The notes under the pieces were generated by a model, which was given only the letters and a program-made list of their open reading frames with translations, did not search any database and was not told the origin of the DNA. The position numbers were made by a program, and so were the translations under genes. DNA of 64,000 nucleotides from Olsenella timonensis (GTDB lineage: Bacteria; Actinomycetota; Coriobacteriia; Coriobacteriales; Atopobiaceae), in assembly GCF_900119915.1 (NCBI RefSeq), contig NZ_LT635455.1, positions 1,426,001-1,490,000 of the forward strand, in the 5' to 3' direction. Positions 53,008 to 54,456 of the stretch are shown piece after piece (position 1 is the stretch's first letter; each line of letters starts with the position of its first letter).

Positions 53008-54456
53008 CTAGAGCTCGGCCCCGTTCGTCTCGATCACGTGACGGTACCAGCCGAAGCTGTCCTTCCTGACGCGCGCGCCCGACCCCTCGCCGTAGTCGTC
53101 GATGTCGACGTAGATGAAGCCGTAGCGCTTGCTCATCTCGGAGGACGAGCAGCTCACGATGTCAATCGGCCCCCACGCGTAGTACCCGCGCAGGTCGACG
53201 CCGTCACGCACCGCCTCGCGCATCTGCTCGATGTGCGCGCGGAAGTAGTCCACGCGGTACGGGTCGTGCACGGAGCCGTCGTCCTCGAGCTTGTCGTACG
53301 CGCCGATGCCGTTCTCGGTGACGTAGATCGGCTTGCCCCAGCGGTCGTAGAACTCGTTGAGCGTGAAGCGCAGGCCCAGCGGGTCGATGCTCCAGCCCCA
53401 CGGGCTCGCCGGCAGCAGCTCGTTGGAGCGGTCGGAGTTGCCGTTGGCGTAGGTCTCGGCGTCGCACACGCTCGTGTAGTAGTACGAGAAGGACATGAAG
53501 TCGGCGGTGCCGGAGCGGAGGTCGTCAACGTCCTTCTCGCCGAAGCGCACGTCGATGCCGTTGTCCTGGAAGAAGCGCAGCATGTAGCCGGGATAGGAGC
53601 CGCGCAGCATGACGTCGCCGAAGAAGTGGTCGGTCTGGTTGTGGCGCATGCACGCGAGCACGTCCTCGGGCCTGGGGCTGCCGGGATAGGCCGGGCCGCC
53701 GCACAGCATCATGCCCATCTGGAGGTCGGGGTAGGTCTCGTGCGCGTAGCGGCACACCCGCGCGCAAGCCACCATCTGGTTGTGCAGGGCCTGATACTTG
53801 GCCTCCTGCAGGTTGTCCACCCTGTCGGCGCAGATGCCGAGCGCGTTGTAGGACTCCACCGAGACCAGGTTGATCTGGTTGATGGGGATCCACAGCTTCA
53901 CGCGGTCGTGGTAGCGGTCGAGGATGACCTTGCAGTAGCGCTCGAAGAGGTCGATGAGCTCGCGCGAGTACCAGCCGCTGTACTTGAGCGTCAGCGCCAC
54001 GGGCATCTCGTAGTGCAGGCAGGTGATCATCGGCTCCATGCCGTTGGCGCGGATCTCGTCGATCAGGCGGTCGTAGAAGGCCAGCCCCTCCTCGTTGGGC
54101 TCGGCGTCGTCGCCGTTGGGGAAGATGCGCGCCCAGTTGATCGAGGTGCGGAACGTCTTCAGCCCCAGCTCGGCGAGAAGGGCGAGGTCCTGCTTGTAGG
54201 TGTGGTAGAAGTCGATGCCGCGACGCTTGGGGAAGATCCGGTCGGTGGAGGCGAGGAGCTCGCGCACGTGCTCGGTTGTCTCCTCGCCGTTGTACTTCTG
54301 GTCCACGGGGATGTCGGCGGTGAACTCGTTGATGTCGGCGAGGCAGGCGCCCTTGCCGCCCTCGTCCCACGCGCCCTCGCACTGGTTGGCCGCCACGGCG
54401 CCGCCCCAGAGGAAGCCCTCGGGGAAGCCGGTGGGGACCGTCGGGGTGTCACTCAT
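53008..54456 (-). CDS. GH1 6-phospho-beta-glucosidase-like enzyme with Gln at the acid/base position
   Basis: Predicted to hydrolyse a phosphorylated beta-glucoside delivered by the neighbouring PTS. The 482-residue protein keeps the nucleophile ([11 protein letters not shown]) and the 6-phosphate pocket ([15 protein letters not shown]). The acid/base motif, normally NEIN, reads PINQINLV, with Gln194 in place of Glu. Plant myrosinases, which cut thioglucosides, have the same change. It may therefore act on an S-linked or other activated phosphoglucoside, or be slow on O-glucosides. It is the last gene of the operon. Confidence 0.9.

Follow-up and report, generated by a model that had tools for sequence, protein, structure and literature searches.

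Canonical 6-phospho-β-glucosidases of glycoside hydrolase family 1 (GH1; EC 3.2.1.86), such as that of B. licheniformis (6wgd), BglA of E. coli (2xhy), SmBgl of S. mutans (3pn8), and LpPbg1 of L. plantarum (3qom), have an acid/base Glu in a TxNE motif, a nucleophile Glu in (I/V)TENG, and a Ser-Lys-Tyr pocket for the 6-phosphate group, and are linked to PTS. In plant myrosinase (EC 3.2.1.147; Sinapis alba, 1MYR and 1E4M), the GH1 fold and the Glu nucleophile are shared and the acid/base position is occupied by Gln. A bacterial route for the glucosinolate sinigrin has also been published. In Companilactobacillus farciminis, sinigrin is degraded via a fused β-glucoside-type IIBCA PTS (CfPttS) and a GH1 enzyme (CfPbgS) acting on 6-phospho-sinigrin, as described in PMC8660893. 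Another operon to be compared is that of Listeria monocytogenes, in which the order is IIB-IIC-IIA-GH1, the acid/base residue of the GH1 enzyme is Gln (WIVINQINLIQFEPFNSTA), and the gene of a PRD regulator lies downstream. From the gene order and the gene names in the literature, we infer that this operon is lmo0914-lmo0918. The products are described as IIB, IIC, and IIA for lmo0914, lmo0915, and lmo0916 (PMC9927151), as a β-glucosidase for lmo0917, whose transcripts are elevated in soil extract (PMC3179493), and as a mannitol/fructose-type IIA for lmo0918 (PMC7889195). The operon is called a cellobiose PTS in the literature, in passages that contain no substrate test.

The window, i.e. the whole 64,000-nt stretch of DNA analyzed, contains an operon of the same order, with the GH1 gene last (Table 1). 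The GH1 proteins of the two operons are approximately 50% identical, and the regulator is divergent in the window, whereas it lies downstream in Listeria. The arrangement agrees with the dedicated Lac-type PTS and regulator proposed in a preliminary description of this DNA. In contrast to the fused CfPttS, the IIB, IIC, and IIA proteins are separate and belong to the Lac type. PF02255, PF02302, and PF02378 match the PTS genes adjoining the hydrolase gene above the cut-off; the NCBIfam lac/cellobiose models match the same genes, but under their cut-offs.

Table 1. Positions of the GH1 gene, its active site codons, and the adjoining PTS and regulator genes in the window
Feature	Position	Strand	Basis
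GH1 6-phospho-β-glucosidase homolog, Gln branch	53008..54456	-	ORF, 482 aa; profile match, PDB alignments, fold
Gln194 codon CAG (plus-strand triplet CTG), acid/base position	53875..53877	-	Translation, alignments
Glu201 codon GAG, 7 residues past Gln194, at the place of plant myrosinase Arg194	53854..53856	-	Alignment
Glu381 codon, nucleophile in YVTENG	53314..53316	-	Translation, alignment
Phosphate-pocket loop S437-SSEMS-K443-R-Y445-G446	53119..53148	-	Alignment
PTS IIA, lactose/cellobiose family	54482..54856	-	Profile matches
PTS IIC, lactose/cellobiose family	54927..56228	-	Profile matches
PTS IIB, lactose/cellobiose family	56241..56552	-	Profile matches
Divergent regulator, HTH/Mga + PRD + EIIA-2 domains	56802..58736	+	Profile matches

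The protein clearly belongs to GH1 (PF00232, 407.9 bits versus a cut-off of 22.6). The NCBIfam 6-phospho-β-glucosidase models match over the full length, with a best score of 503.8 bits below the curated cut-off of 623. The AlphaFold2 model has very high confidence (pLDDT 96.1, pTM 0.94), and its closest fold is 6wgd, with a Z score of 59.2, an rmsd of 1.7 over 454 residues, and 50% identity. The four canonical enzymes above all share the fold (Z 54-59, 44-50% identity). Two GH1 matches are found in the host genome, and the phosphate motif is present only in that of the window; the other has SWANA-FKNRYG at the place of this motif and an ordinary NEP. Thus, no other GH1 enzyme of the host looks fit for an imported sugar phosphate. 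The genome also encodes a complete Enzyme I, and it has two matches to the HPr family. Downstream of the region, the translation of an ORF at 61082-62485 (+) resembles an integrase-core transposase.

In the five best alignments with PDB entries (6wgd, 2xhy, 3qom, 4ipl, and 3pn8), the residue aligned with Gln194 is always Glu, in NEIN or NEVN. The substitution read from the codon in the preliminary description is therefore real: alignment gives Glu for BglA and Gln for myrosinase, where 1MYR reads TINQL, and the likeness to the plant enzymes drawn there holds at this position. The nucleophile and the phosphate pocket (Glu381, Ser437, Lys443, and Tyr445) are intact, as that description had also stated. 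Glycone- and phosphate-binding residues of LpPbg1 and SmBgl are named in PMC3605045, and their counterparts in the window protein are Q25, H148, N193, E381, W428, C436, S437, K443, and Y445, where Cys436 replaces Ala431 of LpPbg1 and SmBgl.

For the comparison of these positions, 258 distinct homologs remained after duplicate removal; the acid/base site is Gln in 113 of them and Glu in 145. Exact duplicates, the locus with an internal TGA (L116), the window's own locus (L001, kept once as the query), proteins below 42% identity, and matches covering fewer than 350 query residues were left out before counting. His148, Asn345, and the nucleophile Glu381 are kept in all 113 Gln proteins. Asn193 is kept in 112, as are Gln25, Trp428, Ser435, Ser437, Lys443, and Tyr445, each of these six with a single gap. 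This conservation suggests that catalysis on a 6-phospho-glucoside is maintained. The loss of one of the two catalytic residues could alternatively mean that the protein only binds, for instance as a sensor of the imported phospho-glucoside. However, such a function would hardly account for the unbroken retention of the nucleophile and the entire glycone site, nor for this protein being the sole phosphate-motif GH1 of its host, and we regard it as very improbable.

The Gln proteins occupy a single place in the GH1 tree. In a tree of 119 non-redundant rows, the 34 Gln rows are explained by one change (SH-aLRT 99). In a second tree of 98 rows, from which residues 188-208, 276, 327, and 436 and proteins shorter than 400 letters were omitted, one change again accounts for the 46 Gln rows (SH-aLRT 98). 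Gln and Glu rows are unmixed in both trees and lie on opposite sides of one branch; the trees are unrooted, and the result should be read as one side of a branch. Since the window enzyme is nearest to the bacterial 6-phospho-glucosidases, its Gln arose separately from that of plant myrosinase. A report of this branch was not found in the open literature.

Gln enzymes occur in Coriobacteriia, Bacillota, and some Enterobacteriaceae, for the most part in operons of the IIB-IIC-IIA-GH1 kind. The first scan of genome contigs gave 80 loci, including 13 further Gln homologs among otherwise Glu enzymes, in Collinsella, Paenibacillus, Clostridium oryzae, Breznakia, Longibaculum, Isobaculum, and Superficieibacter. 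Niallia, Enterococcus gilvus, Enterobacter ludwigii, and L. monocytogenes were added later as hosts. Matches above the cut-off were found in 26 of 140 genomes of the window's family, in 11 of 295 genomes of the family of the Superficieibacter locus (seven of these with Gln), in 70 of 245 of the family of the Paenibacillus locus, and, at the order level, in 122 of 395 genomes for the Isobaculum locus and 59 of 294 for the Longibaculum locus; the acid/base residue was read for the fetched loci, a subset of all these matches. Among 31 genomes of the window's genus, every other match that spans most of the query, short pieces aside, is at 51% identity or below, and the genus loci that were read carry Glu. 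The gene is thus patchy within the genus and was probably acquired horizontally. The genome of Breznakia pachnodae (4.3 Mb; the source of locus L048) contains 43 GH1-type matches at E values up to 1e-100, and the acid/base residue of several of these is Gln.

Ten of 13 Gln gene pairs have a usable dS and give dN/dS values of 0.026-0.175 (Nei-Gojobori), the other three being saturated. The Gln branch is under purifying selection. Sequencing error and gene decay are ruled out by the low dN/dS and by the presence of Gln in 113 distinct proteins; the gene had been judged not decayed from its sequence before, and this judgment stands. The loss of the acid residue throughout a branch points to an unusual substrate and not to a broken gene.

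The residues on the aglycone side should be noted. Seven residues past Gln194, Glu201 is present in 103 of the 113 Gln proteins, and in non-redundant rows the contrast is 37 of 46 Gln rows versus 3 of 52 Glu rows. Tyr327 stands at the place of Met314, a subsite +1 residue of SmBgl, in 90 of 113 Gln proteins, whereas Met is found there in 102 of 145 Glu proteins. Judging from these two aligned positions, the acceptor (+1) site is rebuilt in the Gln branch. A Glu/Asp signature at position 276, the place of Arg267 in LpPbg1, was not retained, since what the Glu enzymes carry there varies with the alignment: one gives Asn for 96 of 121, another mostly Leu, Met, or Glu.

The position of Glu201, in the same loop after strand β4 as Gln194, raises the possibility that catalysis has been relocated, i.e. 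that Glu201 serves as the general acid/base and Gln194 only positions the substrate or water. Its enrichment in the Gln branch fits this idea, and the corresponding residue of plant myrosinase, Arg194, presumably faces the aglycone. On the other hand, Glu201 coexists with Glu194 in three Glu rows, and LpPbg1, a Glu enzyme, is also aligned with Glu at 201, indicating that the residue is not wholly confined to the branch. In ten Gln proteins, Glu201 is missing; an acid at 202 is found in five and at neither position in the remaining five, although these small counts depend on the alignment (row L048 was scored as Glu201 in one alignment and not in two others). The latter five suggest that Gln can stand without a nearby substitute. 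Relocation is rather unlikely, though it is the main rival of the explanation preferred below.

Glucosinolates, suggested as the substrate in the preliminary description, were considered next to this. A phospho-myrosinase proper would take glucosinolates imported by the PTS and cleave the 6-phospho-glucosinolates, and it would be in keeping with the Glu-to-Gln change of the plant enzyme. In the 1MYR stretch YWLTINQLYSVPTRGY, Gln187 is followed seven residues on by Arg194, which we take to be a contact to the sulfate group; Arg194 and Arg259 together are presumably the sulfate and ascorbate contacts. The window enzyme, as most of its branch, has Glu201 in place of Arg194, and Arg259 aligns by eye with Gly254, a position that is mostly G, N, D, or C in Gln proteins. 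Glu at the place of a residue assumed to bind sulfate argues against glucosinolates. The phosphate pocket is a further difference from plant myrosinase, and membership of the plant myrosinases is rejected on Arg194 and Arg259, though the acid/base Gln is the same.

The literature on sinigrin bears on both sides. The C. farciminis route shows that a PTS and a GH1 enzyme can process 6-phospho-sinigrin, and L. monocytogenes, which is tabulated as a sinigrin degrader in a review (PMC8401010), carries a Gln enzyme; it also has a Glu-type GH1 (L177). However, the published sinigrin PTS is of another type than that of the window. Disruption of bglA and ascB in E. coli O157:H7 is described as lowering sinigrin degradation (PMC6767122), and BglA has Glu; insect myrosinases are likewise described as retaining Glu (PMC9632345). 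On these accounts, Gln is not required for the cleavage of sinigrin, and published degraders do without the Gln clade. Accordingly, the proposal of a glucosinolate substrate was not upheld, and we consider a phospho-myrosinase improbable.

The explanation we prefer is that the Gln proteins are active, retaining 6-phospho-β-glucosidases of a distinct GH1 branch, acting on a 6-phospho-glucoside whose leaving group needs no protonation. It has about an even chance of being correct. A Gln-type GH1 enzyme should still be capable of releasing an aglycone whose departure requires no proton. In the proposed mechanism, the acid/base Glu would have been replaced by Gln once, and the PTS would import and phosphorylate a β-glucoside. 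Glu381 would attack the anomeric carbon, and the aglycone would depart unprotonated, which is conceivable because it would be a good leaving group. Thio-, acyl-, enol-, and acidic phenol-type aglycones, or one with an internal acid, are candidates. Glucose 6-phosphate would then be freed by water, which Gln194 may position or which may be activated by Glu201, by the aglycone, or by an external base, and the remodeled subsite +1 (Glu201 and Tyr327) may fit the aglycone.

Glu170 is taken as the acid/base residue of the related enzyme Gan1D. An engineered mutant, Gan1D-E170Q, is described as crystallized with intact cellobiose 6-phosphate (4zfm), suggesting that poor activity on ordinary phospho-disaccharides is to be expected of a natural Gln enzyme. 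Three observations count against the leaving-group explanation: the conservation of Glu201, which is compatible with a catalytic role; the neighboring genes, which give no diagnostic aglycone pathway; and the spread over gut, soil, and insect-gut bacteria, which gives no indication of one rare activated plant compound.

A different fate of the glycosyl-enzyme may also be considered. The protein could be a transglycosidase that passes the glucosyl-6-phosphate moiety to a sugar, acid, or phosphate acceptor and not to water, or a slow ordinary 6-phospho-β-glucosidase. Acid/base mutants of retaining glycosidases favor anionic acceptors, and the acceptor site is changed at Glu201 and Tyr327. However, the negative charge of Glu201 would disfavor an anionic acceptor, and no acceptor-linked gene recurs near the operon in the 44 loci described below. 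We find this explanation quite improbable.

What is solid is the Gln branch, its single tree position, and the altered acceptor site. In records, genes of this branch are named glycoside hydrolase family 1 or cellobiose PTS. If the branch cannot protonate ordinary leaving groups, the cellobiose assignment is wrong, and some other glucoside is consumed by numerous bacteria of the gut, the soil, and the insect gut. The branch is also a second natural loss of the acid/base residue in GH1, distinct from the plant case, in a soluble enzyme that is coupled to PTS and easily assayed, and possibly a case of a moved catalytic residue. A wider picture would be a GH1 branch without acid/base Glu in which this function has moved to Glu201, or which consists of plant-independent phospho-glucosidases for acid-independent substrates, served by their own PTS and, in places, by a private HPr/Enzyme-I N-domain relay and an EamA-type aglycone exporter. 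This picture is tentative and, on the whole, doubtful.

The neighborhoods of 44 Gln loci were read. An IIC homolog is nearby in 31, a regulator in 27, IIA in 27, and IIB in 26; these rough counts are lower bounds, since ORF calling is imperfect in G+C-rich loci and contig ends or short flanks cut the view. The order IIB-IIC-IIA-GH1 is also seen in the annotated Enterococcus gilvus and Listeria records. A β-glucoside-type IIBC-like ORF lies near the Gln gene in six loci, one of which (L198) is confirmed by NCBIfam. Loci L186-L193 of the window's family represent a Gln subgroup in which EGF replaces ESF; no PTS genes were called near them, and most have a regulator of the RpiR type. No diagnostic catabolic or aglycone-pathway gene was found among the neighbors in the 44 loci; HPr, Enzyme I N-domain, EamA, and RpiR genes are what recur.

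In Enterobacteriaceae, three loci (L195-L197) have the order IIA, HPr, a lone Enzyme I N-terminal domain, IIB, IIC, GH1, an EamA-type transporter, and a regulator; L038 and L194 share this order without a called HPr ORF. The free-standing Enzyme I N-terminal domain, of approximately 250 aa, is found at L195:5462-6217 and L038:3370-4215, and also in L194, L196, and L197. HPr thus stands beside the lone domain in three of five Enterobacteriaceae loci, resembling the HPr-EIN part of DhaM. A private phosphorelay formed by these two components is possible. EamA/DMT-type transporters are encoded next to or near Gln GH1 genes at L195:9434-10360 and, in the window's family, at L185:7082-8125 and L187:5852-6733, and are possibly aglycone exporters. 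An HPr-like cluster occurs in 12 of the 44 loci, and all three members tested were confirmed by NCBIfam. HPr-like genes beside Gln GH1 genes are located at L182:9358-9612, L196:11986-12243, and L032:5611-5883; in that of L182, the Arg past the active-site His is changed, with GLHAQS instead of GIHARP.
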